Shown here: positions 32,829 to 61,122 of the stretch, in pieces | Position numbering within the stretch: the first letter of the stretch is position 1 | Layout of the letters: every line of letters begins with the position of its first letter | NCBI GenBank assembly: GCA_963924555.1 | Contig: OZ004589.1 | Coordinates: 2,108,001-2,172,000 of the forward strand | Direction of reading: 5' to 3' | Origin: Crambe crambe | Lineage: Eukaryota; Porifera; Demospongiae; Poecilosclerida; Crambeidae | DNA: 64,000 bases | Made by a program: the position numbers and the translations under genes | The notes under the pieces: generated by a model | The model's input: only the letters and a program-made list of their open reading frames with translations | What the model was told of the DNA's origin: nothing | The model's database searches: none

Positions 32829-35800
32829 CTAACAATTTTGACCTAACAATTTTGACCTAACTGTCTTAGCAGTTCCTGCCAATCCAGATTCTTCCAGAGC
32901 TTGAATCAAACCTTCTACAGTTGGATCTTTGTCTACATTATCCATCCTCTGCAGCCATGCATGAACCATATCTTCTGGAAGTTGTTTCATGTTGTCAAGA
33001 TTTGGTAAATGAAGACCAAGTGCCAACCCCACTTTAATAATATCTCTTCTTCTTACAAACTTCAAACACTGAGAGATGTCATGTAAATCCTTCATTTCTG
33101 TGCACCACAAGAAAATAAAATGAATGTATAGAATCCCCTGATTATGGAGAGGTTATTTGGAGGTAAAAGAAAAAAATTAAGAAGAAAAGTATACTAGCAG
33201 TCACTTCTGTTGTTGTTGTTGTTGTTGTCGTTGTTGTTGTTGTTCAGAGGTTTGGAGTTTCCTTTATCATGTATAATGATTAATTCTTCAGTTTAATAGC
33301 TATATCTCACCTAGTTTGTGCTCATATGGTGGTGATGGTGGTTCGTAGGAATCGATTCTCCTTAGGCCTATAAAAAATTATGATGAAATAAAGGTTCTAG
33401 CTATTATAACTAACTGCATGGTAGGAGCATACTCAGCTCAGTCCAGTACAAGGGTGATATATTAGCTCACTTTGCTCACAATGATACTACCTACCTGAAA
33501 AATCTGTAGGCATGTCATCCTCAATATATATGGTGAAGAAGAACCTCTTCTTAGTCGTTCCATCAATCTTCACTCGATATTCCAAAGGCTTTTTAACACG
33601 TCCTTTTTTCTTCCAAATCGCCTTCAGTTCAGAGTGAATCACAGTTTCTTTCCCAAGATGGGTTTCATCGACATCTTTTTTGCTAATCTATAATAATAAA
33701 TTATTATAATTAAGTTAAGTAGCCTCAAGACTCTTATAGCTATAGCTTGTACCACAGAATCTTTTAACAGAAAGACTCTCCAACCGTCCTTAGAATCGTA
33801 GCCATCCAAGGGTACATCCAATGCAATTTCATCTCCTTTGAAGTACAATGTTTGGTCTGTGCTACGCCAAGCCCCCTTTGAGTCATAATAATCACGAACT
33901 ATCTGTATAATGATATATTTATTGAGATCAAAAGTGAAACAATGACACTTCTGAATAAAGGACTATGCAGCCATTTTGTCCTTTGTAGAGAGGTCGTCTT
34001 TTCTTGGAAGTAGCTAAAGTGTAAGTGAAACAGTTATCATGAAACTTCTTAATAATGGACACAATGGGACCAGCCATTTTGTATCTCGGAGGTAAAAATG
34101 TCTTTGCACTTAGCTATCAAAATATATCCCTAAGGTTTGTCCTCTTTTGGAGTGTCTATTATTGGAGGTTCTACTCTGTTATATAAACTTACAGTTATGT
34201 GTGTATCATCACACCATGTGACAGCAAAGTGTATCTCTCTGCTTGTAGGTGGTCCCATGTGGAATACACCAGACCAGTAGAGACGTTGATCAGATCCCTG
34301 TTGTACGTTACCTACTCCACTAAAGTGATTCAAATCTATGACTCCATAGGAACTGTGTTTACTGAAACTCCCTGTGTTCATGATCTTGAAGGAGTATGGA
34401 AGACCTTTCTGGGCACATGAGGCTCTGACCATAAATAGACGAGAGCTATTCTCAGGCATAGCACAATGCTGTATTTCTAAAGTCACTGGCTCCTGGAATT
34501 TGCAAATTGGTACTGATTTTATCCAAAATACAGGACTGACCAGCGTGGTGTTCTCTGGGAAGGTGTACTGACCAGAGACAGAGGCTTTTATGATGATTCT
34601 GCAGATATCAATGCCTTTTGGAAGAGCAGACGCTGGGACTTTGAGCCTTAATCCATAGCCTTTCCAGTCAAATTGCTTAGAATAACCATTGATCACATCA
34701 ATGGACACTTCTTTAATCACCACCACTCCCTTCAAGTCACCAGAATCTGAACAAGAAAAGAAATTAGTTAAAAACCAAACATTAATAAGATGAATTTGAT
34801 CTAAACTGACCCTATACTAACTATACCAGTCTGCATACCTCTGTCTTGCTCTGTGTACAGAGGGGCAATAAACTCCAGAAGCATACTGGGCAATGTGCTT
34901 GGCTTTCCTCTTCTGAATGAATTGACTGGGGGATTGAATAAGTCGCCAGTGATTCCAACTTTCTGTAATTGGTAGATTGAGTGTTCTTTGAAGTAGGATA
35001 TATATATATTCCAGGCAACATGGACCACCATGTAAAGTAGTGGGAGATATAGTGCATATTCTATGATAGAGTCTGAAAAAGGGAGTGGCTTGTTGTAGTG
35101 ATGCCAAGAATTGACAAGTGCTAAATTAGCAAATATCAGAGCATCTGTGTAGTTCAGGAGGTTGTTTTTTGCATTATATGGCTGAAACACAATTACCAAA
35201 GCAATCATAAGCATACAAAGTTTAAGCTGCATCAGCAATCTTGATACAAGGTCACTCATGAAACAGTCAGCAGCTATGAAAAATAAACGGAAAAGAAAAT
35301 ACAGTCCAGCAAAGAAACGCATATTCTCTTTGTAACACCCTTGAAAAGCATCCAGTAACATATTGATCCTTTCAACAGGATACAGTGCCCATAAAAAGGA
35401 GATTCTGCACAAACACTGCTCAAAGATCTTGAGGGGTAAGACCAAGAGAAACACTGGAGGGGCAAGTACGAATACAGTAAAGATGAAAGCTGATGGCAGT
35501 TGGTAGTAGTAGAAATAATTGGGATCAGTTGACTCATATTGTCCTGCATAGTAAACTCGTGATGGATAAACTGTAGCATCATCTTCGTCCATCAGAGGTT
35601 GTGTTTTAACAATGCGTGATAAAGTGAGACTAAACTTAGTGTATGATAGGAGAATGAATGTTGGAAAAGCGTGTTCAAGAATATTTTCCCTCAGAAAAAG
35701 ACATTTTTTCAACCCAAAGACTATAACTATCACAATCAGTGGGGAAAGTGCTAATCCATAATCCAGCAACATAACTGTCAGAATGTCAAAGGTTGGACTC

Positions 35801-38652
35801 AAACAGAATGGGGGGAGCAAATTTTCAAGGAACTCCAAGTTGAATAAGCCATAAATGGTTTTGTAATTGGTTGTTATCTTGGCACTTGTTTCAAGATGGA
35901 AGGAGCTTGAGACCATCTGGCAGTAAAGGATAAAGGCATGGGCTGGTCCATTAGTGAGATGTAAATCAAAAGAAATGAGGGCTGAAAACAGAAAGATGCT
36001 GGGATAGTACGTTGAAATGAGATATTTGGCAATACTAGCATATAGATTGCTATTAGTGCACTCTACGCATTCGTAGATTTCAGAGTTGACAGCAGGTCCT
36101 AAACCACTGGTACATTCGCCGCATATTACTCCTGTCCTGTTATTGTTACATACAACATCATTTAAATCTGCAGACTTCTTGGGCAGAGTGATGTCAGACT
36201 GTGTTTTACCACAGAAACTTGAGGGACACTTGCCTACAAAATACTTATCACTATCGTTCAATGATCCTATCCAATGATTAGCAGCGAGTTTCGCTTCTAC
36301 TGCCAAGCGCTTCAATGTATCCCGATCACATTTAACACTTCCATTGTATGAACAACATTTACAGACACCACCCGTCTCTTTGAATCCTGGTGGACAAGGA
36401 ATAAACTTCACCCTGTCAGCCCTGAATGTAGCTACCAGAATGTTATCACCTGGAGCATTGATGAGGAGATCAACCTTATCTGATCTGTTTAAACTCACTT
36501 TGCCTTCCATGGCATAGGCTTGCTTACCACCATATGTGTAACTGAGAATAGTGCTATTCGTTACATCAATATTGTAATCGTTTTTGATAGAGATCGGCAA
36601 CATAAAGACTTGACCAGGGAAAACTTGTATGTTATCGGATCGAAGTCTTATGTAACTCGGTTCCGTCGTTATCTGCTTAGAACAGTTTACTTGTAAAATA
36701 TCATCATAGTATATCCAATAATCATCATCCCAGCAGAATACAGACTGGATTCCTTCGTAGCCATTACCCCCAGCCCACGAACAGGGACGTAGTGATGAAG
36801 AGTGTATAGAATTACCTCGTTGACGATTTTGATCAAGGTTATTATGAAACTGAAAAGTTGCAGTCCATTCTTCAGGGGTAAAAGAAGGGTCAACATGTCG
36901 TATGAAACAGTTCGGTTGTGTCCTTGAATCGTCCATTTCGATGTACTTGTTATAAATAGCTCCACCTTTGTCCGTAGCAGTGTTATTATCAAAGAATATT
37001 TTTGTGTCTTGATCAATCAGGATGTAAGATGCACCTAGCAATGATATAGCTCCTCCTCTATATCCACTATTATCAGTAAAATTCACAATGCTTTGAGCGA
37101 AGTTCACAGCACTTCCTGTGAGAGCCAAGGCAGTGCCTGAATTGTCACGAAAATAAATTTCTCCTTTGAAAGCCACGTTGAGAACTTGATGGATGTATAC
37201 GGCACCTATTCCCAAGGTGTGTGGGAAGTCTCTCTTGTCCAGCAAATCTGCATATGAAACACTATTACCTTTAAAAGAACAGCTCGAAACCACCACATTC
37301 ATCATGATACCTTTAGTGACAAGAGGAAAAGCACTGATATGTAAAGCGCCGCCTAATTTAGCAAAGTTGCTCTGAAAAGTTACGTTTTCTAGTTTCAAAA
37401 ATGCTTCCTTCCCGATATCTGTGTACTGGAGAGCTGGTGACACTGATAAACCACCTCCGTACATTGCCGAGTTAAAAAGAAATTTGCTATGGATTATTTC
37501 AATATAATTGCCATGCTTGGAATTGGAGATATTTTTATATACATAATGTCCGATTCTCATTCCACCACCTCCAGTTCCAGTCTCAAGGGTATAGCTACAT
37601 TCGTTATCACTCAAAATACAATCTGTAATATATGCCGAGTTGTCCGTCGCATTATCGTGGAACTCCAAAAAGAGTCCGCCACCCCACTGAGCCTTGTTAT
37701 TTGTGAAACGACAGTTAGAAATATGAAAGACATTATTTATAGCACCACCTTTGACAAATACAGACAACCCGCCTCCTCGACCAAAGGCCTGATGGTTGCT
37801 TCTATCAGGTACAATATACGTTTGAATTCGTACCGAACTGATCGTTTCAGGTCTCTCTTCACTAGCCTCATTACTGGCTACATTATTAGAAAAAGTTGAA
37901 TTCATGAAGAAATAATACGCCCCAACAACAGGGTGTGTATTGAATTTATTGCTGCAGTATTTCTCACCAGGAATACAGTAGGAAAACTCCACATAGAAGC
38001 CACCACCGCCATATGAATTAGGCGGTGTTACCTTGTTATCCATAAACACACTATTCTCAATGGTGTTATTGCCCCCTGTGTCATACATCACCACACCTGT
38101 TGCATTAGGACTGAGACTAACATTTACATGCTTCATGTGGACATTTGCACACAAGTAGAAGTAGAGACCAACTTTAAATTCGTAGAGCAACACTTCAGAA
38201 TGAACGGAGTTGGTTACTCTCCTGCTGGTACTGCGTCTTGTCACTTTTCTACTGGTACTATGTCTCGTTGCTGCACAGTATTCGAATGTTACACCCACAA
38301 TTTCAAGGTTAGATACATTGACAAAGGCCAGTCCAGTTTCTTCTCCATCACATGAGATAACAGATTCAGATCCAGAAAGTGCAAGAAATTTCAAGTGTTT
38401 AAAAGGATCAACTGGTTTTCTAAGAGTGTAGAAGGTATTTGGTTGGAGAATATAGTTGGTGGAGTCCATTCTGTACTCAAAGGCATATTCAAGGGACTTA
38501 CAAGGAATCCTTGAGGAGTTTGAAGTGTGACACTCGAAAGAGTCCTCTGCAGTGGCTGGATCGATATAAATGTTGTGGAGATGGGCTTCTACAGTGCTAG
38601 TGGTGACGACAACCAAAAGCGAGACAGTAAACATCATTCCATACACAGCCAT
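32829..38652 (-). CDS. Beta-helix ectodomain / multipass membrane / ZU5 / Death-domain receptor
   Basis: Six exons join in phase (38652-34839, 34746-34193, 33902-33753, 33687-33495, 33367-33311, 33097-32829), giving about 1678 residues. A signal peptide (1-23) precedes a long ectodomain of Asn/Gly-rich repeats (NNxAxxGGGL/I motifs, about 150-610) typical of right-handed beta-helices. Cys-rich segments follow, including CKCCSYNG and GVICGECTSG (~843), then eight or nine hydrophobic helices (~880-1220) with the DAFQGCYK motif. The cytosolic part has a ZU5 domain (VPASALPKG, LVSPVF, PVTLEIQHCA), a second beta domain (position of UPA) and a C-terminal Death domain (LGLHLPNLDN...HAWLQRM...LIQALEESG). 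ZU5-UPA-Death occurs in UNC5, PIDD and ankyrin and signals through Death-domain adaptors. It is probably a surface recognition receptor (inference). Confidence 0.85.
33208..33244. repeat. TTG trinucleotide microsatellite
   Basis: About twelve TTG units with one TCG interruption, in the last intron of the receptor gene. Confidence 0.9.
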
Positions 38653-40317
38653 TTCCGCGCTAGCTAGAGGGGGATCCCCTTAGAATTGTTTCGCTGACTG
38701 ATTAGGCCACTCAAGAATAAACCAACTCACAGTGCTGTTTCGGGGGTGTGTCTAAGTTAAGTGCTTGTAATTGCATTGTGCATGTGACGTACGTCAACGG
38801 TGCATATCGCATGCTGTATATACGTATACAGTGGTACAGCGGTTTTCCAAAACCTTGCAACAGGAAAGCGGAAAGCGGAAGTGATTGGAGCGAACTGGTT
38901 GGTCAGATTGCTTATATTGATCATGTGACTCGCTTTCTGCAGTTGCAAGATTTTGGAAAACCGCTGTACGTGGTTTGCAGGTTGCTTGACACAGTACTTC
39001 AGTCAGCAAGGTCACATGGACCAATCAGATTCATGCTGACATCATTGCCTGCAAATCTGATTGGTTCATGTGACCTCGGTGGCTGCAGTACTAGTGTCTA
39101 CTGTATATATCTGTAGCTGTACGCGCGCGCATGATTACATGCACACGTGATATCGAGCGTCTTTATACGCGCACGCGCGAGCGAGTAATTTCACAGGCAG
39201 CTGTTTTGACTTTATTAAAAAGAGCCTAAAGATAGGCAATCAGGGCTTATTGCAACTTTTGTGGCTTGGCATTTCAATGGATAGATCCAGCTAAAAATAC
39301 TTGTCCATAATTTTGGCAGTTGTTAGCTAGCCACGTCTTGAGGGACTATTAATTTCATGTCTGCTTCAGCGATAGGCTCAGGTTGTAAAGGTGTAGCTAT
39401 GCAGTTCCTTCATTTGCTTCACTATAATTTTGTCTCAGTGGTTGAGGAGAACTGCCATGCTGTTCTTTGAGCTTTCAACTTTGGGGTGAGCCATTAGCTA
39501 ATGCAGTGTGAGCTTGTGTCTGAGATGACAAGTGTCACTGAGAGAGGCAAATTCAAACACAATGGACTACCAGCCCACCATCAAGGGGAAGTACCAGTTG
39601 AGCATTAAGTCCACATCCAGGGGAGTCCATTCTCTGTAGCTAGCTAGTTGCAAAGCTGCCCCTTGAGAAGCTTGGCACTCAAATCCTAACCATAAGTGGA
39701 GCAAATAGCTAGACCAGTAAGTGGGACTCAAGAAGTGGTGGTAGCTAGCATCATCTCCATTTCTACTCGTAGTGGAGGTCAGGGACAGTTTGAATGACAT
39801 TGTCCTTGTTGCATGGCAGCTGGATGGTGAGGGTAACATCCTTCACCTTGTAGCAGATATTTGTTCAGAAGTTAACTGAAAAGTGGTATAGCTAGCTAGC
39901 TTCCTCTCTGTAGTCGGTAAAAAGTTTATCGATTCCTGTATGTCGGTGGGAGTTATCCTAGCCTTACCAATAATTTTGTGAAATCATTTGGTCACAGGGC
40001 AGTGGACCAGGAGAATTAAGATGTAGCAGCTATGCATGTGTGTGATACAAACATTATCTTCAAGTGTTCACTAATTATACTATTTTCTGTATATTTTACT
40101 TCCTATTAGCTATGTCATTTTCATTGCAAGTCCCTTTTTCATGCAGCTTTTTTTTCAAAATTTCAATTAAAAAACAAACAAACAAAACAAATAAATAATA
40201 ATAATAATAATAATAATAATATGAGCATGTAAAAGTATAATCCAGAGTTGAAAGTTTAGAAACAGAAAAGTCGGATACAGGAAAAAAGACATAAAGATAT
40301 ACAGGAAGTAAAACCCA
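38653..40317. other. Intergenic region with a double hairpin
   Basis: No supported gene. Two adjacent inverted repeats lie upstream of the receptor start. GTACAGCGGTTTTCC... (38834-38861) pairs with 38942-38969 (27 of 28 bases), and AGGTCACATGGACC... (39009-39031) pairs with 39054-39076. An alternating CG/CA run (about 39120-39182) and an AAT microsatellite (40192-40220) follow. Confidence 0.6.
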
Positions 40318-42626
40318 TTACTGACAAGTGGAGTAAAAAAGTAAAGAAATGAGAGTCAGCACTGACCAATGCCCAGCAATTTCTCTCCTACTTGAACTAT
40401 CTGGTACACTCTTATAGTATTGTTTTTGACTGATAGAAAATCCACCACATTTGGGGAAGCCTGGAGGAGCAGGGTTATGCCTTGACTCCACTTCGTTAAT
40501 GGCCACAGCCATTCCCTGCAGTACATGAGAAATGAAATGGCAATGCAAGAACCAGAATCCAGGATTGTCTGACCGAAAGTGGAGCACGACGTAGCCACCA
40601 CCAGGAACGATAATGGTGTCTTTACGAACAGTTTTATCACTAATAGTGAAAGTTGGAGAAGACCCATTCCAAGATGGGAGACTGCAGCGTGGATCATTAC
40701 ATCTGATGTCTGAAGAACGAGTTTGTAGTGTTCCATTGCCACCATTATATGGTCCATAGCTGATATCCACCACATGGAAGTGGTGTCCATGCAAATGCAT
40801 TGGGTGCGAGGAGCCCTGACCACCACCAGTAATGAATTCATTCCCAACCAAACTGAGGACTAATCGAACTGTCTTATTGAAAGTAGCTACTAACGTCACG
40901 GACATGAGTACAGTGGCAAGAATTGTCACAAGGTGTATTAACATCACAAAATTCTGCTGGATTGATGGATTCTTTCTGTGTCTGGAGTGGGAAAGGAGGA
41001 AGTTGCATGTTTCGTCCATTCATAGAAATGGATATTGCTCCCATGTTGAAGAAGAGTTCACAATCAGGACAGTTTTGGTCGACATTGGCAGAAGGGAGCT
41101 CGCTGCTTGGTGTAGGCCATAACATGCGAAGTTCATGTGCATTGATGCATTGACGGATGTTGTAGGAAAGATGGAAGGAGCGAAAGGGACAATTCACTGC
41201 TACACAGCCACCCATGTTACCACATGTCGTAACATCAAAAGGAATAGAGATGTTCTTGATTTGTTCATAACTTGTAGAACGTGGAGGAGGAGCAGGATTG
41301 TAATGGAGTATTCCTTCGGCAAAATTCCCCAGAGACTGGTAAGGAGGACCACTGGTAAAGTTGACTTCGAGAGTTTCAGCTCTTATCCAGTAATCATTGA
41401 CATCTCGTCGTGGCTTATTGGCTTTGAGAAGGAAATCGTACCTTTCTCCAGTGTGAAGAATGACAAACTGTGCTTCCACTGGTTCAATGATGGATCCATC
41501 AGTTGAGATGATAGTAAGGTTATGTTCATCAATGGAAAACTTGTAGGCAAACTGACTCTGAGCTCCTATCAGTCTGAAACGGTATATATTGCCACTTTCG
41601 ACATTGAATATCTCTAATCTGGTTCGTTCATAAGATACATCCTTGTTCCGTCCCTTGCCATTGATCAAACCAGAAAAGAAAGGGATGTGGCCAAGAGACA
41701 GTCCATCTGCACTAACCGTTCTTAGATAACGTTTGTATGGCTTGGCCACACCCAGTTCTAATTGGGATCTCCCCCGCCAGCTTGCCAGGATACAATCCAC
41801 TTTTTGGAGGAGTGTATCGCTCTATATGTGACACTTTATCCCACTCATGTAGATTCAGAGTCTGGTTTCCTGGACTGTCTACGATCGTTCCAATATTAAG
41901 AGCATTTTCGAGCATTGCTCTACGTTCAGCCGATTCACGGACTATGAGAGCTCCAAAAAATCCATCAGCTCTCTGAGTCACACTATGAGAATGGTACCAG
42001 AATGAGCCTGTGGGAGCGGCTTTGAAGTAGTATTGGAATGACTCCATGGGACCGATTGGACATTGAGTGATGTGTATGGCTCCATCCATCCACGGCGTGT
42101 TCCTCTGGTCCATACCGTGCCAGTGGATAGAAATGGCTTCCGTAATCATTCTGTTTATCACGTTAGCTATTATGACCTGTCCTTCATGCACCACCAAAGT
42201 TGGTCCTGGGACTAGTCCATTGACAGCTATAACCGCTCGATATGTCCTTCCATCTACAGTCAGAGGTACAGTACACTTAGCGCTGGGAAAATCTTCATTG
42301 AAAGTAGCACAATCACTACCCCCAGGGATGAAAGAAGGCAACAGATATCCTGTTCTGTTGATATAAAATGGCTTCCCTTCTCCCTTCAGTCTTCTTTGAG
42401 TTTGAGTGTCCAGTTGATCAACTGGTACATAACCTATAGTTTCTTCTATCTTATACGCTGTGAATGTTTGTAACTGTTCGATAGCAAGAGTGAACTCACA
42501 CTCATCTGCTGTTTCCCTACACTTGCAAACTTTATGCTGTGTACCACATGGGACAACATGACGATCAATGACTGCATTGGCCAGTGAAATGGTGATAATC
42601 ATAAGGACCAAGTACTTCGTAGCCAT
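40318..42626 (-). pseudogene. MCO5: subfamily 2 multicopper oxidase with two frameshifts
   Basis: Three overlapping open frames cover a complete MCO: 42626-41712 (signal peptide MATKYLVLMIITISLANA, HWHGMDQ, FWYHSHSV), 41800-40874 (middle cupredoxin) and 41019-40318 (HPMHLHGHHFHVVD, HCHFISHVLQGM, GPI-like tail). The frame changes near 41755, where a segment present in MCO6 is also shortened, and near 40890 (SSYFQ-stop against FNKTVRLVLSLVG). All four copper motifs are intact, including the type 1 His in HCHFISH, so inactivation is recent or the indels are assembly errors. Introns are unlikely because no sequence is left over at the junctions. Confidence 0.85.
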
Positions 42627-43405
42627 CGTGTTTACTTCCTGGTATATAAAATCACTCCTTTGCGCACGCGCGATACATCAAAACAACAAGTGGGCGTGTA
42701 CGTATTTAGAGCGACCCTTGTAGAAGCTAGCCTATAGGAGTACGAGTGTCCATTGTGCAGAGTTTAAGTAAGTTACCCAGACCAGGTAGATATAAAAATT
42801 CGACCCCAGTTTTTCTGTGTTTAGTTGCGTTGATTGTTAGCTGGCTAGCTAGACTACACCTTTCTCTTAAAGCAGATCGATTCCTGATAGCCAATTAAAA
42901 TAGCTAGGTGCTGGTTCTTATAAGGCTCTATAACATAGTTCCAGTAAGAAGTTCGGGGATCTAATCTCTAGGCTTACTTCTAGGTGCCAAGTGAACACAA
43001 GTAGCTTACCAATGGACTGAACTAGTCGTCCAGGCTTCAAAGTGCTCTGTTCCAAGAAAACCAGTCTAGAATTTATGCCTACAGCTAGTACACTATGCTT
43101 ATACCCTAGTTGGCTAGCTATGATATAGAGCAGAGTTGAATTGCATACATTAATATTACTGCTATGCTCATAATTAGTACATTAATGCTTAATATAGCAC
43201 ACAATCTGAAACATCATATAGCAGAGTTGTACATAGCTACTCGGTCTGTAATGTCACTGTAATCGCCATGTAAGCTATAGTGTTCATAATCTAACCCTGA
43301 TGAGAATAGTAGCTATAGGCTATTCATACCTCAATACTAATAATGTCTACAACTACTTAAAAGGAATGATAACCTTTTTTCCCATAATGTAGGAAAGCCA
43401 CAACA
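42627..43405. promoter_or_regulatory. Shared head-to-head upstream region of MCO5 and MCO6
   Basis: The two genes diverge from this 779-bp gap, so both promoters must lie here unless 5' exons exist. No TATA box or known factor site was recognised with confidence. MCO6's ATG is preceded by AAGCCACAACA. Confidence 0.4.
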
Positions 43406-45748
43406 ATGGAGTGCTTCAAACTCTCTTTGCTTCTATTAGTCTTCAGCTCAATGGCTATCGCTATCATTGACCGTCACATCGTCCCGTGTGATACCCAGCG
43501 CAAGGTTTGCGAATGCAGAGAATCGGCTAACGAGTGCGAGTTCACCCTTCTGGTAGAAGAACTGCAGACATTCACTGCGTATGAAGTTGAAACGAATAGT
43601 GGTTATGTGCCCATTGATCAAATTGATATACAGACTCAGCGCACAAGAGAAGAAGAAGGCAAGCCATTTTACATCAACAGCATGGGAACCATAACACCGT
43701 CTTTCATCTCCAGGGATGATGACGGAGATAGTGATTGTATTACCTATGATGAGGATTTTGATGGAGCAAAATGCACAGTACCTCTCACTGTGGATGGTAA
43801 AACCTTTCGGCCGTTCATCGCCGTCAACGGATTAGTTCCAGGACCGATTTTGGTGGTGTATGAAGGACAGGTCATAATAGTTAACTTGATAAATGGATTG
43901 GTTACAGAAACCATTTCTATCCACTGGCACGGTATGGACCAGAGGAACACGCCATGGATGGATGGAGCCATACACGTTAATCAATGTCCAATCGGTCCCA
44001 TGGAGTCGTTCCGATACTACTTCAAAGCCGCACCCACAGGCTCATTCTGGTATCACTCTCACAGGGTGACTCAGAGAGCCGATGGACTTTTCGGAGCTCT
44101 GATAGTCCGTGAATCGGCTGAACGTAGAGCAATGCTTGAGAATGCTCTCAATGTTGGAATGATCATAGACAGTCCAGGAAACCAGACTCTGACTCTGCAT
44201 GAGTGGAATCAAGAATCCAACTTGGACAGGTATACTCGCGTCAAGGGAGATGTTGGATTCTTTCCGGGCAAACCCATAGGGGATGTCCCCGTACCACCAA
44301 GTGAACAGATGGGTCAACAATACGAACCGTTTGAAGCCACTTTTGGTCCAGATGGACTTGAAGTTGGAGACACACCTTTCTTTTCTGGTCTGATTAATGG
44401 CAAGGGACGGAACAAGGATGTACCTTATGAACGAACCAGATTAGAGATATTCAATGTCGAAAGTGGCAATGTGTATCGTTTCAGACTGATAGGAGCTCAG
44501 AGTCAGTTTGCATACAAGTTTTCCATTGATGAACATAACCTTACTGTCATCTCAACTGATGGATCCATCATTGAACCAGTGGAAGCACAGTTTATCATCC
44601 TTCACACTGGAGAGAGGTACGATTTCCTTCTCAAAGCCAATAAGCCACGACAAGATTACTGGATAAGAGCTGAGACTCTCGAAGTCAACATTACCAGTGG
44701 CCTTCCATACCAATCTCTAGGGAATGTTGCCGAAGGAATACTCCATTACAATCCTGCTCCTCCTCCACGTTCTACAAGTTATGAACAAATCAAGAACATC
44801 TCTATTCCTTTTGATGTTACGACATGTGGTAACATGGGCGGCTGTGTAGCAGTGAATTGTCCCTTTCGCTCCTTCCATCCTTCCTACAACATCCGTCAAT
44901 GCATCAATGCACATGAACTTCGCATGTTATGGCCTACACCAAGCAGCGAGCTCCCTTCTGCTGATGTCGACCCAAACTGTCCCGATTGTGAAATCTTCTT
45001 CAACATAGGATCTGACACAGACTCCATGAATGGTCGCAACATGCAACTTCCTCCTTTCCCACTCCAGACCCAGAAAGAATCCATCAATCCAGCAGAATTT
45101 TGTGATGTTAATACACCTTGCAATAGCGATGATGATGAAGCATGTCCCTGTATTCATGTTCGCAGTATCACCTCATTCAACAAGACGATTCGATTTGTCC
45201 TCAGTCTTGTTGGTAACGACGTCTTGGAAGGGGAGGGCTCTACACACCCAATACATCTCCACGGACATCACTTCCATGTGGTGGACATTGGTTATGGACC
45301 TTATTACGCCAACAACGCCACCCTAAGGACGCGTTCCTCAGATATCAGATGTAGCGATCCACGTTGCAGTCTCCCTTCTTGGAATGGGTCACGCCCAACT
45401 TTCACCATTGATGATAAAACTGTTCGTAAAGACACTGTCATCGTTCCTGGTGGTGGTTACGTCGTGATTCACTTTCGATCGGACAATCCTGGATTCTGGT
45501 TCATGCACTGCCACATCATACCTGACCTGCTGGAAGGCATGGCAGTGGTCATCAACGAAGTGGAGTCACGACATAACCCAGCCCCTCCGGGTTATCCAAC
45601 ATGCGGTGGATTCTCCATTGGTCAGGACCAATTCTACAATAGCCTTGCATTCGATCCAGACAACTCCGGCACAAGAGAAGCATCAAGTTTGTGGTTGCTG
45701 ATGGTTTCGATACTTGTATATCTAACATCTGTGACATTTGTGTTTTAA
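43406..45748 (+). CDS. MCO6: laccase-like multicopper oxidase with Asp at a type 1 copper position
   Basis: The 780-residue single-exon ORF has a signal peptide (MECFKLSLLLLVFSSMAIA) and a Cys-rich segment (CDTQRKVCECRESANECEF). HWHGMDQ is at 173 and FWYHSH near 213, followed by HPIHLHGHHFHVVD and HCHIIPDLLEGM from His701. All eight trinuclear-cluster histidines are present. The third type 1 ligand, normally His in HCHIxxH, is Asp707 (codon GAC at 45524-45526). Cys702 and Met712 remain. The type 1 copper should therefore be altered or absent, changing redox potential or activity. The C-terminus (WLLMVSILVYLTSVTFVF after a small-residue stretch) fits a GPI signal. Large blocks are near-identical to MCO7. 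Confidence 0.93.
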   Translation: MECFKLSLLLLVFSSMAIAIIDRHIVPCDTQRKVCECRESANECEFTLLVEELQTFTAYEVETNSGYVPIDQIDIQTQRTREEEGKPFYINSMGTITPSFISRDDDGDSDCITYDEDFDGAKCTVPLTVDGKTFRPFIAVNGLVPGPILVVYEGQVIIVNLINGLVTETISIHWHGMDQRNTPWMDGAIHVNQCPIGPMESFRYYFKAAPTGSFWYHSHRVTQRADGLFGALIVRESAERRAMLENALNVGMIIDSPGNQTLTLHEWNQESNLDRYTRVKGDVGFFPGKPIGDVPVPPSEQMGQQYEPFEATFGPDGLEVGDTPFFSGLINGKGRNKDVPYERTRLEIFNVESGNVYRFRLIGAQSQFAYKFSIDEHNLTVISTDGSIIEPVEAQFIILHTGERYDFLLKANKPRQDYWIRAETLEVNITSGLPYQSLGNVAEGILHYNPAPPPRSTSYEQIKNISIPFDVTTCGNMGGCVAVNCPFRSFHPSYNIRQCINAHELRMLWPTPSSELPSADVDPNCPDCEIFFNIGSDTDSMNGRNMQLPPFPLQTQKESINPAEFCDVNTPCNSDDDEACPCIHVRSITSFNKTIRFVLSLVGNDVLEGEGSTHPIHLHGHHFHVVDIGYGPYYANNATLRTRSSDIRCSDPRCSLPSWNGSRPTFTIDDKTVRKDTVIVPGGGYVVIHFRSDNPGFWFMHCHIIPDLLEGMAVVINEVESRHNPAPPGYPTCGGFSIGQDQFYNSLAFDPDNSGTREASSLWLLMVSILVYLTSVTFVF

Positions 45749-46590
45749 GATAATTATTGGTTTCTATAGCTACATACCACGACATTTTGTACTAATAATT
45801 CTTATGATTGATCTTTAAATTTTTATCTCATTTAATATTTATTATAAAAAAGGTCAAAATTCCAACTATAATTTATTCATGGGAAATTAGTAACATAATA
45901 CATAGTATGGCAGATTTTATATGGTAAATTGCCATGGTAACACATAATGAATATTGTGCAGGATCTAGGAGTTAGACCCTATAGGGGTGAAAATTCCTCT
46001 CCCATGAGACCAACATAATAGCTAGCCACATCACATTTTCGTAGCTAGCAATGAAATGCAGTCTCTGTCTAGTAGTCGTAGCTATAGCTTCCTATTCTTA
46101 TAGCACGTACTGCATGCAATATTAATAATAATAATAATACTTATAGCAAGCATGCATGCTAGACACTTTAATTTCTAATGATATGCCATAACTATTAGTG
46201 TTACATGGACAGTTACAATAATCGTGTCTCAGATTTAATTAGTTCAAATGCCAAAGGCCTACACCCATGATGTTTTAGTGCATGGATGTTGTTTTCCCCC
46301 ATTATCTATAATACTAACTAATGTCTCCAATCAAGATAAAACTTATGAAGCTATGTCCTTGTGGTAAGAGATTGTCATGAAAACTAATTGACTTGGTCAT
46401 AGCTATAAGATAAATTGTCTGAGTTAAATATATCTGAACTGAAGCCAGTGTGCATGGGTTCTAAACTTAATCAGCTAGTTACGTAGTTATTAGCTACATT
46501 GAATATTGGTACATCATAGATTGCTTAAACTGGACTGCTTCACTATTAGAGCTAGCTGAGCTTCTTCCCACAGATTATTTCAACTGAAAA
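45749..46590. other. MCO6-MCO7 intergenic region
   Basis: AT-rich, no gene seen. It includes a short TAA microsatellite (about 46123-46139). The MCO7 promoter should be at its right end. Confidence 0.6.
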
Positions 46591-48912
46591 ATGACTGCAA
46601 AAATCCTTGGATTTTTCTTTCTCTTTGCCATCTCCAACTCGCTGGCCACAGCTGCCATTGACCGTCACGTTGTGCAGTGTGATACACAACGCAAAGTTTG
46701 CGAATGCAGAGAAACTGCAGATGAGTGTGAGTTCTCCCTCCTCATTGAAGAGTTGCATACCTTCATGTCCTATGAGGTGAAGAGGATGTCTACTGATGGG
46801 GTCATTCTAACCAGGGAAGAAGAGGGAAAGCCATTTTATTTTAACAGCACTGGACACCTGATACCTTCATTTCTTTTCAGGGATGATGAAGACGATACTG
46901 ACTGTGTCATCTTTGATGAAGATTTTAGTGGAGCGAGATGCACCACTCCGCTCACTGTTGATGGTAAAACGTACCGACCTTTAATTGCTATCAATTCGTT
47001 AATCCCCGGACCCACTCTGGTGGTGTACGAAGGACAAGTCATTATAGCTAATGTGATGAATGAAATGATCACGGAAACCATTTCTATCCACTGGCACGGA
47101 ATGCACCAGAGGAATACACCATGGATGGATGGAACCACGCAAATTACTCAATGTCCAATTGGTCCCATGGAGTCATTCCGATACTACTTCAAAGCCAATC
47201 CTACAGGCACATTCTGGTACCACTCTCACACCGTGACTCAGAGAGCAGATGGACTTTTTGGAGCACTCATAATCCGTGAATCGGCTGAACGTAGAGCAAT
47301 GTTTGAGAAGGCTCTCAATGTTGGAATAATCATAGACAGTCCAGGAAACCAGACTCTTAATCTACACGAGTGGAACAGAGAATCAAATTTAGACCGACAC
47401 ACGCGCGTCAAAAGTGAAATTGCATTCTTTCCAGGTAAGCCATTAGGAGAAATCCCTTTGCCACCAAATGAACAGATGTCTATGCAATACAAACCTTTTG
47501 AGGAAGTATTCGGTCCAGATGGACTCTCAATTGGAGACACACCTTTCTTTTCTGGTCTGATCAATGGCAAGGGACGGAACAAGGATGTACCTTATGAACG
47601 AACCAGATTAGAGATATTCAATGTCGAAAGTGGCAATGTGTATCGTTTCAGACTGATAGCAGCTCAAGAGCAATATGCCTACAAGTTCTCCATTGATGAA
47701 CATAACCTTACTGTCATCTCAACTGATGGATCCATCATTGAACCAGTGGAAGCACAGTTTGTCATCCTTCACACTGGAGAGAGGTACGATTTCCTTCTCA
47801 AAGCCAATAAGCCACGACAAGATGTCAATGATTACTGGATAAGAGCCGAGACTCTTGAAGTCAACCTTACCAGTGGCCTTCCTTACCAGTCTCTGGGGAA
47901 TATTGCTGAAGGTATACTCCATTACAATCCTGCTCCTCCTCCACGTTCTACAAGTTATGAACAAATCAAGAACATCTCTATTCCTTTTGATGTTACGACA
48001 TGTGGTACCATGGGTGGCTGTGTAGCAGTGAATTGTCCCTTTCGCTCCTTCCATCCTTCCTACAACATCCGTCGATGCATCAATGCACACCAACTTCGCA
48101 TGTTATGGCCTACATCAAGCAGTGAGCTCCCTTCTGCCGATGTCGATCCGAACTGTCCAGACTGCGAATTCTTCTTCAATATTGATTCAAGTACAGATGC
48201 TATAAATGGTCGCAACATGCAGTTTCCTCCTTCCCCACTCCAAACTCAGAAAAAATCCATCAATCCAGCAGAATTCTGTGACATCAATACACCTTGCAAT
48301 GATGATGCATGTCAATGTATCCATGTTCGTGAAATACAGTCATTTAATCAGACAATACGATTTGTCCTCAGTCTTGTGGGTGATGATGTCTTGGAAGGGG
48401 AAGGCTCTGCACACCCAATGCATCTCCACGGACATCACTTCCATGTGGTAGACATTGGTTATGGACCTTACCATGCAAACAATGGCACCCTTAGGACGCG
48501 TTCCCCAGACATCAGATGCAGCGATCAACACTGTAGTATCCCATCTTGGAATGGGCCACCCCCAACTTTCACCATTGATGATAAAACTGTTCGTAAAGAC
48601 ACTGTCATCGTTCCTGGCGGTGGTTACGTCGTGATTCACTTTCGATCGGACAATCCTGGATTCTGGTTCATGCACTGCCACATCATACCTGACCTGCTGG
48701 AGGGCATGGCAGTGGTCATCAATGAAGTGGAGTCACGACACAACCCAGCCCCTCCTGGTTTTCCAACGTGTGGCAGATTCTCTATTAGCCAGGACCAATT
48801 CTACAATAGCCTTGCGTTCGATCCAGACAACTCCAGTATAAGGGAAGCACCAAGTTATTGGTTGTTGATGGTTTCAGTAATAAGTGTCTGCTTATACATT
48901 TTAAATTTGTAA
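46591..48912 (+). CDS. MCO7: laccase-like multicopper oxidase with the same Asp substitution
   Basis: The 773-residue ORF is MCO6's tandem paralogue. It has a signal peptide (MTAKILGFFFLFAISNSLATA), CDTQRKVCECRETADECEF, HWHGMHQ near 168, FWYHSH, HPMHLHGHHFHVVD and HCHIIPDLLEGM. The position normally held by the type 1 His is Asp701 (GAC at 48691-48693), as in MCO6. The DNA from about 47,550 to 48,130 and around the last motif is almost identical to MCO6, while the N-terminal 130 residues differ, a pattern suggesting gene conversion. It ends in a hydrophobic GPI-like tail (YWLLMVSVISVCLYILNL). Confidence 0.93.
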   Translation: MTAKILGFFFLFAISNSLATAAIDRHVVQCDTQRKVCECRETADECEFSLLIEELHTFMSYEVKRMSTDGVILTREEEGKPFYFNSTGHLIPSFLFRDDEDDTDCVIFDEDFSGARCTTPLTVDGKTYRPLIAINSLIPGPTLVVYEGQVIIANVMNEMITETISIHWHGMHQRNTPWMDGTTQITQCPIGPMESFRYYFKANPTGTFWYHSHTVTQRADGLFGALIIRESAERRAMFEKALNVGIIIDSPGNQTLNLHEWNRESNLDRHTRVKSEIAFFPGKPLGEIPLPPNEQMSMQYKPFEEVFGPDGLSIGDTPFFSGLINGKGRNKDVPYERTRLEIFNVESGNVYRFRLIAAQEQYAYKFSIDEHNLTVISTDGSIIEPVEAQFVILHTGERYDFLLKANKPRQDVNDYWIRAETLEVNLTSGLPYQSLGNIAEGILHYNPAPPPRSTSYEQIKNISIPFDVTTCGTMGGCVAVNCPFRSFHPSYNIRRCINAHQLRMLWPTSSSELPSADVDPNCPDCEFFFNIDSSTDAINGRNMQFPPSPLQTQKKSINPAEFCDINTPCNDDACQCIHVREIQSFNQTIRFVLSLVGDDVLEGEGSAHPMHLHGHHFHVVDIGYGPYHANNGTLRTRSPDIRCSDQHCSIPSWNGPPPTFTIDDKTVRKDTVIVPGGGYVVIHFRSDNPGFWFMHCHIIPDLLEGMAVVINEVESRHNPAPPGFPTCGRFSISQDQFYNSLAFDPDNSSIREAPSYWLLMVSVISVCLYILNL

Positions 48913-50486: not shown

Positions 50487-53400
50487 CTACACAGTGTCTG
50501 AAGCATTAGAGTGATCATTATTAGTTCTTTGATGTGGTGCACTAATGATTCTAGAGGCCAACTCCACATCTAGTTCTGCTTTCCATTTGAGTTTGTTTCC
50601 GGATACCATGGACTCGAGCTTCCATTTTTCCGAAGGAAAACGCTTCATACCCATCTCCAGCACCGTTTCAAATTTACTTCTATCGTTACACGCACTGCAT
50701 ACCTATGTAGAAATGTAGGTGCTGTTACAGACACCTGTAGGCATTTCAACCCCTTAATAAGAGACTGGTCTCAAGGCTTACTCAGAGCTAGCTATAAATA
50801 TTATTATTAGCTATAACATGCATGGGTAGCTATCTTTTTTACTGTAGCAATATTGAAAAATTGCCAGATAGAGCTCTTTTTAGGGCTTACTCAGAGCTAT
50901 GGATAGCCATAACATGGGTAGCTATCCCTTTTACTGCTAGCAAATTTGCCAGAAACTGGTCGCTTACTCAGAGCTATTATATATAAACTGTAACATGCAT
51001 GGGTACCTATTCCTTTTCATATCCTTTGATTTTACCCCTTTTTACTGTAGCAACATGAACTACAGGCATGAAAATTTACTAACTGGTTGTTATGCAATGG
51101 TAGGGATAAACACAGTGATTGAGAAACTAGTATGACCACTGCCTGTACAGTGGAACTTCCAATGTAGGACACTCCAAAAAAAGGACAACAAAGGAGAGGA
51201 CAAAAGGCAGCGTGTGTGTCATTATTTCAGAGGCTCCACTGTAGTGGATGTTATAATCTTAAACTCCAAGTATAAGGCTATAATAATTACCATTAATAAC
51301 TCCTCAATAGTTCCCAAAGTTGGTTCCAATTTGCACTGCTCAATGATGTTCCAAAAGTAGAATGCCCTCTCCATGTCTCTACAGCCCTTACAGCAGTACA
51401 ATAACTTGTTTATCAATTCAATATCTGGTTGAAGTCTCGGGTAGTGTCTGACAAACTCTCGCCAATAGTCGTAAATGGCAAGATTATAACTGTGGAACTG
51501 CTTGCTGGAAGCGAGTGCATTCGTGATCGCCTTGAAACTGTCCAAGTTCAAATGGGAGCCGTGTTCTGATATCCTGTCCATGGTTTTGTACACTTCTTTC
51601 TTTTCAGCGGTTCTAGCGTAGGCCCCAAGTAGAAGATTCCAGGCCTCAATATTAGAGAGGAAACCACACTTCTCCATTGCCTTCAGGAGAAAAGAAAGAT
51701 AAAATCTGTTTGCATCACTTGATCACATCACTATAATATCTGCTCTAACTTTCTCAATTCTTGATTAAATTTCACATTTAAAACACCAATAGCTCTAGAC
51801 CTGATCACCCACTCTATGAACTGGTTCTTGAATTTTTAAGAATTGATCAAGAGAATCAAGTGAACACGAATAGACTGTAACTATATACTGAACTTATGTC
51901 CTGTATAGTGTCAAGAAACTACCATAAAATTAATGCTGTCTGGACATGCACAGACTAACATTGTGACTGATGATAGCCAATGGCTTTAGCCAAGAGTGAA
52001 CGTTCGGATCTTCATTATACTACCCCCAAAAAACCAGATTCAGGAAAAAAAAAACACAAAAAATTTGGGTTTCTAAAAAGAGCTCATTTGAGTTTTTTTT
52101 TGGGTAGTATGATGAAGTCATGGACGTTAAAAAATCTGCATGTCTACCCTTAAAGAAATTGGACCAGATGAATAAATGGTTAGGGAAATAGGCTAGAAAA
52201 TATTATCTTATGTCAGGCTGTATTTTTAATCCTCTCATTCACCTCTCTGATAGTGTTGATGTTCCAGACAGCTTCTTCCCTATGCTCAGCAGTGTGGAGG
52301 TAGTAAGAAATGCCAAGGAGATCTTTGTACTCGTTGTGACCAAGAGTGATGTTGTAGAGCTCTGCATGTCTCAAAGTGCACCGAATAATCTAGCCAAGGG
52401 AAAGAACACAAGGTACATAAGAGCAGCCAGCCTTGTTGCATCTTTCCTGCCCCAGAGTAAAAATTACTGACATATGGTTAAGAGGTTAACACTATCATGA
52501 TCATACCATAAATTGGTAAAGGGTCCATAATAAAATTGGTAAAGGGTTAACAGTACTTTTAATCAAATGGGTAAAGGGTCCACAGAGAATATGCTACAGT
52601 ATATCAAGTGTACTTAATAAACCCTCTCTACCTTGTAAACTTGAGTTGGTGGAACTTCACCACATTCTCTTGCCCACTTGGTGAATGACTTTGGGTCCAG
52701 TTTCTGGCCATTTCTTCTCATCCCCTTCACGACAACCCACAGAGTGTCCACATAGTCTTTGTCAAAACAGGACAGCAGTCGTATTGCCTGCACAGACAAG
52801 AGGAAAGAGATCGTGGATCAAAATGGATTTAGTTGGTCCAATCACAATTTGGCATCCCCCCTTCATTTTCTAGTAATTTATACTAGTGCAACACAGGGCT
52901 ACTTACCCCTCTATTGATCTTGTGGAGGAAATACTGGACAATATGTACTCATGCAGCTCATGCATGCTTCACCATACCTTCCTGGTCTATCACACCTCCC
53001 TGCCGTACCATACCTCCCTGCTGTATCATCTATCACACCTCCCTGGTCTATCATACCTTCCTGGTCTATCACACCTCCCTACTACATACCTGCTGTACCA
53101 TGCCTCTCTGCTGTATCATACCTCCCTACCTCCTTGCTGTATTATACCTCCCTACCTCCTTGCTGTATCATACCTCCCTACCTCCTTGCTGTATCATGCC
53201 TCCCTACCTCCTTGCTGTATCATACCTCCCTACCTCCTTGCTGTATCATACCTCCCTACCTCCTTGCTGTATCATGCCTCCCTACCTCCTTGCTGTATCA
53301 TGCCTCCCTACCTCCTTGCTGTATCATACCTCCCTACCTCCTTGCTGTATCATGCCTCCCTACCTCCTTGCTGTATCATACCTCCCTACCTCCTTGCTGT

Positions 53401-56400
53401 ATCATACCTCCCTACCTCCTTGCTGTATCATGCCTCCCTACCTCCTTGCTGTATTATACCTCCCTACCTCCTTGCTGTATCATGCCTCCCTACCTCCTTG
53501 CTGTATCATACCTCCCTACCTCCTTGCTGTATCATGCCTCCCTACCTCCTTGCTGTATCATACCTCCCTACCTCCTTGCTGTATCATACCTCCCTACCTC
53601 CTTGCTGTATCATACCTCCCTACCTCCTTGCTGTATTATACCTCCCTACCTCCTTGCTGTATTATACCTCCCTACCTCCTTGCTGTATCATACCTCCCTA
53701 CCTCCTTGCTGTATTATACCTCCCTACCTCCTTGCTGTATCATACCTCCCTACCTCCTTGCTGTATCATACCTCCCTACCTCCTTGCTGTATTATACCTC
53801 CCTACCTCCTTGCTGTATCATACCTCCCTACCTCCTTGCTGTATCATACCTCCCTACCTCCTTGCTGTATCATACCTCCCTACCTCCTTGCTGTATCATA
53901 CCTCCCTACCTCCTTGCTGTATTATACCTCCCTACCTCCTTGCTGTATTATACCTCCCTACCTCCTTGCTGTATCATGCCTCCCTACCTCCTTGCTGTAT
54001 CATACCTCCCTACCTCCTTGCTGTATCATACCTCCCTACCTCCTTGCTGTATCATACCTCCCTACCTCCTTGCTGTATCATACCTCCCTACCTCCTTGCT
54101 GTATCATACCTCCCTACCTCCTTGCTGTATCATACCTCCCTACCTCCTTGCTGTATCTACGTACCTCATTTGTTGCAGCATCTGGGACCAAGAAAAACTC
54201 CTTCCACAGGCACCCGAAAAAATCCTTGGTTAGGAACTGCTTAATGATATACCTCATTCTTGCTTTTGCTTCGGACTCTATGATTTCATGCTTGACCGAG
54301 CAGTTTTTCTTGAAAGAAGGAAGGAAGAATTGTCTGAGTGCAATTGCCTGGAGGCGTATGGCAGCATTGACTGCACGTACGATGTAAGCAGAATCGAAAA
54401 ATGTTGCATCCATCCATTTAGTTTTCTGTGTAGAAGGGAGAGTAATATTTAATTTAAATAGGATTCTCCACACAATTAAAATAAAATGAAGGGATTTCCC
54501 CACAGTATTATTGGGATATGCATGAAAAATTCTGCAGAATCATTTGCACCACATTTTAGCCCGAGTGCTTGCTATTAAGTCGTGTAACTTGCTCAATGCT
54601 TGACCAAATTCCAAATTTCAAATACCAGCAAAAGATAATAGGAACTTATAACAACAACAGAATTGAGCTGTTGAAAATGAATGCAAAGTTTTCAGCATAA
54701 CTTACGGTACTCTCCATACACTTGTCCCAGAACATGTGGCAAAGAGCAGCAGCTTGTCTGAAGGATTGCTTGCGTGCCAAACACTCAAGAAGCAAAGCCA
54801 ACGTCTTTGGTTGAATCTCCAGCTCCAGACTAAAGAAAGAAAGAAACAAACAAACAAACCGAAGAAGATCCACGAGATCGAATAAATTCTCTTGATACTT
54901 AGCTACTACATTATAAAGCTCAATAAAATAACAATTCTTAAACAAACAAAGATTAGATCTTCGAATAATGGACCCATTGTTGTTGAAAGATGTAGCTGCT
55001 TTTGAGTTTTTCACTCACTTTTTGTGCGCATGTAGAAAATCGAGTGCTGGCTGCATTTCATCAGCAAGGGCTAGTCCATTCAACATGGCTATCTGAATGG
55101 CTGGCTCACACTGTGATACGTCCCCATAATTCTACAAAGGTTAAAAGTTCCTATAAATGATCTGACACTAATAAGAGTGAACATGAGACCTATAAAGGTT
55201 AAAGTCCACCAATTTTTACAGCATAACATTAGAGAGCTCAGCTCTCCTCTACTGTATGCACCTTTTCTACAAACAGTCGCAGGTCTTTGACATTCTTCAA
55301 TTTCCCCAAACATTCCAGTCTGATGGTGTCTAGCTCTACACTGCGTCCTCCTTCAGTTGGAGAGAACAAGTCACAAACTGCGAGGGTTTCCTTTACGTGT
55401 CCATTATCAAGGAAGGCTGTAGCACATGCACAGAGGAATGATTCACCATCCTGTAAAAATCAGCAAATATCTAATAACACTCAGTAGTGACATACACCAC
55501 ATATCCCATCTGTCGGCCAGAAAACTGGCATCTACTAAAATCACAATAAATCACGTTAGCTATGTAACCTTGCACGCAAATGAGGCAGTTAGCTTTGGCG
55601 ACTAAGATGGCTTATGGCTGAAGCTGCTAAGCAGTTAGGCTAGGCCTAAGTGGCAACACTACGTATACTATAACTGAATAAGGAACTCTCCTTCTATTCA
55701 GGACACACTGTGGTTCAATAGGTAGCAACCAATTCTGCTACATAATTATGTTACACACCTCAGGCTCTATGTTCGAGTTGTATGAATCTCTCACGAAGTC
55801 CAAAGCCTTGACTATCGTGTTGTTGGTCATCAAAGCCTTTAGGTAATGAACACAACACCTGTACCATTCAAGAGGTGGAGGTAAAAAAAGTATCATACCT
55901 CTATTTGATACTCCCTCTAATAAGGAACACTTCTATTTAAAGGAATGATCCAATTACAGAGATTGCCCTATAATAAGGAGAGAAATCTAATTCTAATCAG
56001 AGAGGAGGCAGCTCTATTAATTCTAGCCACTCATAGTCACAGGATTTTTAAGCTAGGGGTTAGAGTTCACCACATTAATTTTTCCAACCATTTATTGGAA
56101 TGCAACCAAATTACAGTTTTAAGTATTACAGGGTACTTTCAAATCTTTATAATGACCAATCAAATTGAGTGTCTTCTGAAAGCTACTAGTAAATTATAAT
56201 CAAGAGTTAAAGAGGGAACGACTTACACTGACTCCATTGCTTAATCATGAGACTTACTGTGGCTCCATTGCTAGTGTCATCCTTTCCATGTCTTCCTTCA
56301 CTGCATCTGCAAGATCAGCACTTTTCATATGCTCACACATTGCCATGACAACAGTATACAGTTCAGAAGTGGCACGATTGAACTTCTTCTCCCTTTCCCA

Positions 56401-58998: not shown

Positions 58999-59703
58999 AT
59001 GACTGCACAGTGGATGGTGGTAATTTGCATTGCAGTTTTTTCTCTATCACCTCAAAGTGTTATTTCGCAAACTCCTGCAAGTTGTAGTGATACACAAAGT
59101 CTTCAGAATATGGAATGCTGTCCTAACAATTGTGGTGGACCAAGTCGTGGTAGGTGTGCAGACATATCTCCACCATCAAGTTTCAACATGGCTAGTAGCT
59201 ACTGATGTACGTGCAAATTGGCCACACTACTTCAGGCGAGCATGCAGTTGCAATAGTAACTATGGAGGATATAATATGACTGCAGTAGGTGCAAGTACGG
59301 ATATTATGGACCAAACTGCATCAAGGATGAAAATTGTCCACGAAAGTCCATTCATGACCTCAATGATACGCAGTGGCAGAAGTATATCGGAATACTGAAG
59401 ATGACAAGAACTTACCCCTCTGGTTATAAAGTAATTTTGGATGAAAATCGACCCAGGTCCACTAATATCATGACAGTTGACATAAAACCATATGTCTGGC
59501 AACATCATTATGCTGCTAAAAACAGCAAATGTAATGGTAAGGCTCTAGCTACATTAGCTAATCACGCACACACGTACACACACGTGCATGTATGCCTGAT
59601 AAAACACACACATTGTTTTAACCTACTGAATTTTGCAGGTATGGATTGTCCGAAAATAGACTATGCGCATGAGGCTACTGGATTTCCAACATGGCACCGA
59701 CAG
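58999..59703 (+). pseudogene. Tyrosinase copy 1, frameshifted and cut by a transposase
   Basis: The first 65 codons match the downstream tyrosinase almost exactly, from the signal peptide MTAQWMVVICIAVFSLSPQS to SSFNM. A net 4-base insertion then gives a stop at 59203; a 5-base insertion near 59275 restores the frame. The exon ends at 59536, an intron follows, and the second exon (59639 on) reads GMDCPKIDYAHEATGFPTWHRQ. There, inside the CuA copper site, tyrosinase sequence stops and P-element-like transposase begins in the same frame (59704). CuB is absent. About 45 bases of 5' flank are also shared, so the whole gene start was duplicated. Confidence 0.88.
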
Positions 59704-60971
59704 TTCGTTGCATTTGCATGTGATGGAGCTACACCTAATCGGAAATTTTTTAAGATGCATGGAAATGGGAGTAAGTTGATATACAAAACACCAAATATCT
59801 ACAGTGATGATCCAGGAGGTGAAATCTATTTTTTTGCGGATGTACCTCACCTTCTAAAGACGACTCGTAATTGTTGGTCAAATTCATTTGCCCACCTTTG
59901 GTCTAGAGCTCTTTGGGTAGGTGATATTATAATTAGTATAGAATGTATTTGAGAGCATTTATTTAATCATGCTACAGAAGGATGGCAAGCACATAAGCTG
60001 GTGTCATTTACAGGACCTCTATGATAAAGACCTTGCTAGACCTTCTGGACTGAAGTTACTGCCAAAAGTAAAGAAAGAGCATGTCAAGTTGAATTCGTAC
60101 TCCCGAATGAGAGTTGATCTTGCTGCTCAAGTAAGTGTAATACATAGTTTAGTGCAACCTATCTAGTGATCACCCCAGGGACCATGATTTGTAGAGATGA
60201 CCACTACAATGCTGGTTATGCTGTGGTTGTTTTTAATCTTAGGTTCTGAGTACCTCTGTGTACTCAGCATTGACTTTGTATGATGATGAAGAAACATCCG
60301 AAACTCGCAAAATGTTCGACCGTTTTTTTTTGGCTGCCTTAATGTGAGATGTACTTCAGAAGGCAAGCAAAAAAGAAAGCCAGGTTTGTGTCCTTATTAT
60401 AGTCCAAGTGATTCCAGATTTGCTGTGAGTGTGTATATCAGTGTTGCTAATGAGCATGATTATGTGTTCCTGTGCAGTGGCTAAAGGATCACTTCTTGGC
60501 ATATCTTTGTGAGTGGGAGAACAGTGTTAAGAGTAGAAAGACCTATACACCTGCTCAAAGAAACAAAATGTTATTATCTCAACAGACTAGGGAAGGACTA
60601 AAGATCACAGGTATGTCATGTATTGGTGTGCATTGCATGCAGGATAATCAATGCAATCTCTCTTGATTATAGTTCATTCATTTATTGAACTATCCAATGT
60701 TCTATTTGGAGTCCCTGGAGTTGAGTATATACTGAGCGAGAAGTTTTGTCAGGACTCGGTGGAATCTTTTTTTGGCAAACAGAGAGCACGTGGGGGGCGG
60801 AATGAAAACCCCAATGTCAAACAGTTCATGGACAACACTGTGTCCTTACGGGTTCAAGGTTCTGCTGCCCTAGAACCAGCAAGAGGAAATTGCCAAAAAA
60901 GAGCTTCAAGCTGCAATGTTCCTGACAATACACCCTCACCTAAAAGAAAGAGATGCAAAAGATCATTGTGA
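59704..60971 (+). mobile_element. P-element/THAP9-like transposase remnant
   Basis: Exon-like blocks at 59704-59916, about 59977-60131, 60243-60385, 60478-60611 and 60671-60971 spell a P-type transposase. They contain FACDGATPNRKFFKMH, YFFADVPHLLKTTRNCWSNSF, WCHLQDLYDKD, CEWENSV and CQDSVESFFGKQRARGGRNENP, with a basic end (SPKRKRCKRSL). A T9 homopolymer near 60322 puts the third block out of frame, so the copy is probably inactive. The THAP DNA-binding N-terminus and terminal repeats were not found. The family moves by cut-and-paste via a DDE/RNase H-like fold. Confidence 0.8.
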
Positions 60972-61122
60972 AAACTTTATTCTTTTATTAATCCTAGCTA
61001 GCAGTTTTGAATTTCAATGTCATTTTGTATTTCAATGTCATTTTCTGAAGGTTGTATTTCAACGTCGTCATTTTCTGATTGTTGTGTTTCTGATGATGAT
61101 TGTTTTTTTGTTTCAGATTGTT

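Follow-up and report, generated by a model that had tools for sequence, protein, structure and literature searches.

The MCO cluster of the sponge Crambe crambe includes two multicopper oxidase genes, MCO6 and MCO7, in which a histidine ligand of the type 1 (T1) copper is encoded as aspartate, and the question raised by this locus is whether such genes are decaying or are being kept in an altered role. Both were found in the window, that is, the whole stretch of 64,000 nucleotides analyzed here. MCO6 (43406-45748, plus strand; 780 aa) and MCO7 (46591-48912, plus strand; 773 aa) were delineated from open frames and Pfam matches as three-domain multicopper oxidases, each encoded by one exon with an uninterrupted frame of 2.3 kb from Met to stop, which bears out the sequence-only reading, where both frames had been taken as intact. 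All three domains (Cu-oxidase_3, Cu-oxidase and Cu-oxidase_2) score above the curated Pfam cut-off in both products, and MCO6 and MCO7 are members of the multicopper oxidase fold family.

Translation and alignment place a GAC codon at the T1 His position of both genes (45524-45526, plus strand, Asp707 of MCO6; 48691-48693, plus strand, Asp701 of MCO7), so that the loss of the T1 His claimed earlier is confirmed. The translated motif is HCHIIPDLLEGM in MCO6 and MCO7, HCHIEVHQLEGM in MCO1-4 and HCHFISHVLQGM in MCO5. The HCH segment, in which two trinuclear His flank the T1 Cys, is encoded at 45506-45514 in MCO6 and at 48673-48681 in MCO7 (both plus strand). A base error was rejected as unlikely because the same codon occurs in two genes whose products have different residues at 138 of 764 aligned positions. 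In the alignment of MCO6 with its best PDB match by sequence (8r7i, titled as blue laccase BP76 from a termite) the loop is free of gaps and the Asp corresponds to the last His of HCHFMYH. On this ungapped pairing with the T1 His, a location of the Asp outside the T1 pocket was rejected, a possibility that the sequence-only reading had named as refuting its own claim. At the same column (five residues after the Cys; Cys+5) of a 32-row alignment, His is found in 30 rows and Asp solely in MCO6 and MCO7, two of the 30 His rows (L016 and L018) being misaligned at this column and having HCHMENH and HCHMEHH as their own motifs. In the available excerpts on Fet3p (PMC7044228, PMC4203857), its T1 copper ligands are given as H413, C484 and H489, the last of them at Cys+5, and the ligand spacing of Fet3p (413-416-418 and 483-484-485-489) is that of MCO6 (614-617-619 and 701-702-703-707). 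By alignment, the Asp of both proteins is in the T1 ligand column. Excerpts on fungal laccases describe the Cys+5 His as touching the substrate and consider it the electron acceptor (PMC12347638, PMC10306062, PMC4323517). Compared with MCO5, there is no new His common to MCO6 and MCO7, and a replacement His in the chain was rejected on this basis. The complete T1 set of a laccase or an active multicopper oxidase (His, Cys and the His at Cys+5) is interrupted by Asp in both proteins, which, as far as their motifs tell, fail a defining laccase feature.

The remaining copper ligands were all found, as had been asserted for the trinuclear His and for the T1 Cys and Met. The eight trinuclear His are present in both proteins (positions 173, 175, 217, 219, 617, 619, 701 and 703 of MCO6), as are the T1 ligands His614, Cys702 and Met712 (MCO6 numbering). 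The HPIHLHG segment of MCO6 (45245-45265, plus strand) provides the remaining T1 His614 together with two trinuclear His, and its equivalent in MCO7 is HPMHLHG (48412-48432, plus strand). The survival of these ligands is a weak sign of selection, because at the 18% residue change observed between MCO6 and MCO7 the chance that 11 given residues are all unchanged is 0.11, and for the 8 ligands in the Asp-bearing region it is 0.45.

Three other members of the cluster, MCO1 (1876-4209), MCO2 (6844-9186) and MCO3 (15812-18235; all on the minus strand), are intact and keep the T1 His. The His is also kept in MCO4 (24639-25797, minus strand), a C-terminal part most similar to MCO3 and spread over more than one frame, and in MCO5 (40318-42677, minus strand; motif HCHFISH), the nearest relative of MCO6 and MCO7 in the window; the frame of MCO5 shifts twice (near 41780 and 40870), which may reflect a broken gene or an assembly fault. 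The earlier statement that MCO1-5 keep His holds for all five motifs, but as MCO4 is partial and MCO5 frameshifted, three genes (MCO1-3) are left as intact comparators with His. Within the MCO5-7 branch both intact genes carry Asp, and the sole His-bearing gene, MCO5, is broken.

The Asp codon lies inside an 83-nt block that is identical in MCO6 (45452-45534, plus strand) and MCO7 (48619-48701, plus strand), and the two genes are therefore not independent cases. Inside this block MCO5 and MCO6 match at 67 of 83 positions. A run at least as long as the block was obtained in 1 of 2000 shuffles (a procedure that assumes even divergence), and two independent losses of the His were rejected on these grounds. 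The shared tract fits a single origin of the Asp, the tract having either been copied from one gene to the other by gene conversion or descended from a recent common ancestor. Divergence between MCO6 and MCO7 is uneven, with dS of 1.37 in alignment columns 0-199, 0.14 in columns 340-550 and 0.16 in columns 712-800, and with codon differences at 107 of 177 positions at the start vs 12 of 77 in the core (Fisher p 1.6e-11). Over the wider MCO5-MCO7 interval (40318-48912), near-identical and diverged tracts are interleaved, a pattern of the kind left by repeated gene conversion.

The dN/dS ratios were estimated by simple codon counting with bootstrap intervals. The comparison of MCO6 with MCO7 yielded dS 0.49, dN 0.105 and dN/dS 0.21 (bootstrap 0.17-0.27), and the ratio for MCO5 vs either of them is 0.20. 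In the Asp-bearing columns 650-800, 23 synonymous and 13 other changes separate MCO6 from MCO7 (dN/dS 0.15; 0.07-0.30), and in the narrow core around the Asp (columns 712-800) there are 8 synonymous and 4 other changes, with a dN/dS interval of 0.02-0.55. The values of 0.21 overall and 0.15 in the Asp region argue that MCO6 and MCO7 are not freely decaying. The ratio near 1 that had been named as evidence to the contrary was not observed, the overall value being far below 1. The claim that these are selected rather than decaying genes stands on dN/dS, both overall and in the Asp region, but its argument from ligand survival turned out to be weak. On the other hand, the purifying selection may reflect maintenance of the fold alone, and a large share of the changes behind the pairwise dN/dS may be older than the His-to-Asp change.

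To place the Asp in a broader context, the residue at Cys+5 was surveyed in prokaryotic genomes and viral contigs, with eukaryotes represented as PDB chains only. The pattern Gly-x-Trp-x-x-His-Cys-His-x-x-x-(His or Asp), run on 249 genomes of one prokaryotic phylum, returned 89 motifs in 71 genomes, all 89 with His (hand count), and two matches with the reversed control. The Asp-only version had no match in 395 genomes of another phylum, a result without a denominator as the His motifs there were uncounted (reversed control, one match), and none in the viral contigs searched, among which no MCO relatives were found either. A search of prokaryotic genomes for relatives found 310, and among the best 80 of these 310 loci, 42 HCH rows were listed with His at Cys+5 in 33; the other nine (7 Asn, 1 Ala and 1 Pro) were set aside, as their context (LWYHCHVNV and similar) resembles the domain-1 motif. 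The 27 aligned frames, out of 48 listed full-length prokaryotic ones, share 20-25% identity with MCO6. No natural His-to-Asp change at this T1 position was mentioned in the titles and abstract beginnings retrieved by searches of open-licence papers for lost or altered T1 ligands.

A metal-free model of MCO6 was built with AlphaFold2 on the 32-row alignment (mean pLDDT 68.9, pTM 0.75). The region of interest is modelled with pLDDT of 84, 78 and 79 for residue blocks 691-700, 701-710 and 711-720, and the T1 loop consists of a strand (696-702), a helix (705-709) and a strand (713-718). Foldseek matched the model to ascorbate oxidase, BP76 and fungal laccases (E down to 6e-36), with query TM-scores of 0.45-0.55 and a whole-chain rmsd of 6-12 A; the domain placement in the model is therefore uncertain. 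The predicted helices at residues 2-17 and 761-779 (the latter with pLDDT 60-69) suggest an N-terminal signal peptide and a C-terminal anchor, either transmembrane or GPI, so that both proteins would be displayed on the cell surface.

The reading that we prefer, although we judge it to be evenly poised between right and wrong, is that the T1 site is impaired, that ordinary laccase turnover has ceased or dropped sharply, that the trinuclear site is still loaded, and that both proteins serve another task, making them 'pseudo-laccases'. It is favored because the Asp is aligned to the T1 His with no new His and all other ligands complete, because dN/dS is 0.21 overall and 0.15 (0.07-0.30) in columns 650-800, because all 89 prokaryotic motifs have His, and by analogy with the Cys484Ser variant of Fet3p (PMC5796215) and with beetle MCORP (PMC4203857), both as excerpted. 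Mechanistically, the solvent-side T1 ligand, which accepts the substrate electron in the laccases studied, is replaced by Asp in both proteins. Without the His at Cys+5, a normal blue T1 centre would form poorly or not at all, and little or none of the ordinary laccase turnover would remain. The trinuclear cluster, with its complete set of ligands, would still load copper. The two proteins, presumably secreted and tethered to the cell surface, would then be kept for binding copper, O2, a partner or the matrix, and would act beside the intact His-bearing MCO1-3. Overall, as selection has maintained the altered proteins, MCO6 and MCO7 have probably given up the usual laccase role.

The best-surviving alternative, which we regard as possible but unlikely, is that both proteins still work as oxidases, with a T1 centre that has been rebuilt. 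Asp, Cys, His and Met would then hold the copper, with an altered color and a lower potential suited to donors that are oxidized easily, for example Cu(I), Fe(II) or a catechol. Aspartate can bind copper, and the Asp of MCO6 and MCO7 could do so. The retention of Cys702, His614 and Met712 and the low dN/dS in the Asp region speak for such a site, as does the role of acidic residues near T1 in serving iron in Fet3p (E185, D283 and D409; PMC11817551, excerpt). On the other hand, no Asp was seen in the 89 prokaryotic motifs or in the 395 genomes (with His uncounted there), the predicted model is metal-free, and in laccases the exposed His also provides the contact for electron transfer (PMC10306062, excerpt), for which Asp is no obvious replacement. 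The more specific proposition of a natural multicopper oxidase, selected in two genes, whose T1 copper has Cys, His and Asp as ligands and a Met close to it and feeds a full trinuclear cluster, appears to us slightly more doubtful still. If true, the Asp-ligated T1 of MCO6 and MCO7 would be a naturally retuned electron-entry site. The copper of nitrosocyanin has a carboxylate ligand, and nitrosocyanin is not a multicopper oxidase. This red copper protein, named in an excerpted source (PMC4059628), has a cupredoxin site that does not belong to the usual blue class.

We consider it improbable that the pair lost function together recently and that the low dN/dS mostly predates the change. Such an early decay would be in line with the presence of two other broken genes in the cluster (MCO4 and MCO5), with the few changes in the core around the Asp, and with the chance survival of other ligands (P 0.11 and 0.45). 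However, both frames have stayed open over 2.3 kb each, and the 23 synonymous and 13 other changes in columns 650-800 (dN/dS 0.15; 0.07-0.30) accumulated after the tract split. It is highly improbable that a different His, from within the chain or from a partner chain, completes the T1 copper and keeps the chemistry normal. Although the sequence is compatible with a donor from a partner chain, no His was gained in both genes vs MCO5, and the loop, modelled as strand 696-702, helix 705-709 and strand 713-718, is gap-free vs BP76.

MCO6 and MCO7 were compared with the closest known systems. The termite BP76 (8r7i), an animal three-domain laccase that ranks first among the PDB matches by sequence and second by fold, has the same three domains and copper motifs as MCO6 and MCO7, but keeps the T1 His (HCHFMYH) where these have Asp. 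A sponge laccase of this animal three-domain group is known from Suberites domuncula, as cited in a review (PMC7036934, excerpt). The insect MCORP, according to excerpts of PMC4203857, is likewise an animal MCO paralogue that is kept in genomes with a damaged T1 site, and it is essential in a beetle, yet has no detectable oxidase activity. Stinkbugs survived knockdown of their MCORP gene (PMC7044228, excerpt), and the analogy is therefore not uniform. Furthermore, MCORP is described as being without the His-Cys-His tripeptide and most ligands (PMC4203857, same excerpts), whereas in MCO6 and MCO7 HCH is present and a single ligand is missing; on their motifs, these two are not MCORP-like in ligand loss. 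The plant SKU5 and Bp10 are also MCO-like proteins with an incomplete ligand set, but SKU5 is reported there to be without T1 and T3 ligands (PMC4203857), unlike MCO6 and MCO7, which retain all trinuclear ligands. The Cys484Ser variant of Fet3p, which has lost its T1 copper and retained 2.7 of 3.8 Cu per molecule (PMC5796215, in the part available), is a model for a multicopper oxidase with an empty T1 and a loaded trinuclear site, although it is engineered and changed at the Cys rather than at the exposed His. With so many ligands gone, MCORP and SKU5 give no separate view of electron entry at T1. The two kept genes, with one ligand changed and normal paralogues adjacent, amount to a natural single-residue experiment with two possible outcomes: a carboxylate can take the place of the His in a rebuilt T1 centre, or a trinuclear copper site is maintained despite losing its usual source of electrons.

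Several other features of the window were recorded. A Tyrosinase domain (PF00264) is encoded in the frame at 62884-63657 (plus strand), within 59275-63660, and represents a second kind of phenol-oxidizing copper protein beside the MCO cluster; the frame at 59275-59952 (plus strand) resembles it by eye, with no Pfam match. The region 29945-30622 (minus strand) encodes a DUF7869 domain, perhaps part of a transposon, and 34804-38679 (minus strand) is a single frame of 1292 codons with a Chlam_PMP repeat match and, by eye, hydrophobic stretches near its end. A minisatellite with a 26-bp unit (40.3 copies, 97% matches) occupies 53109-54157 and is open in all three forward frames.
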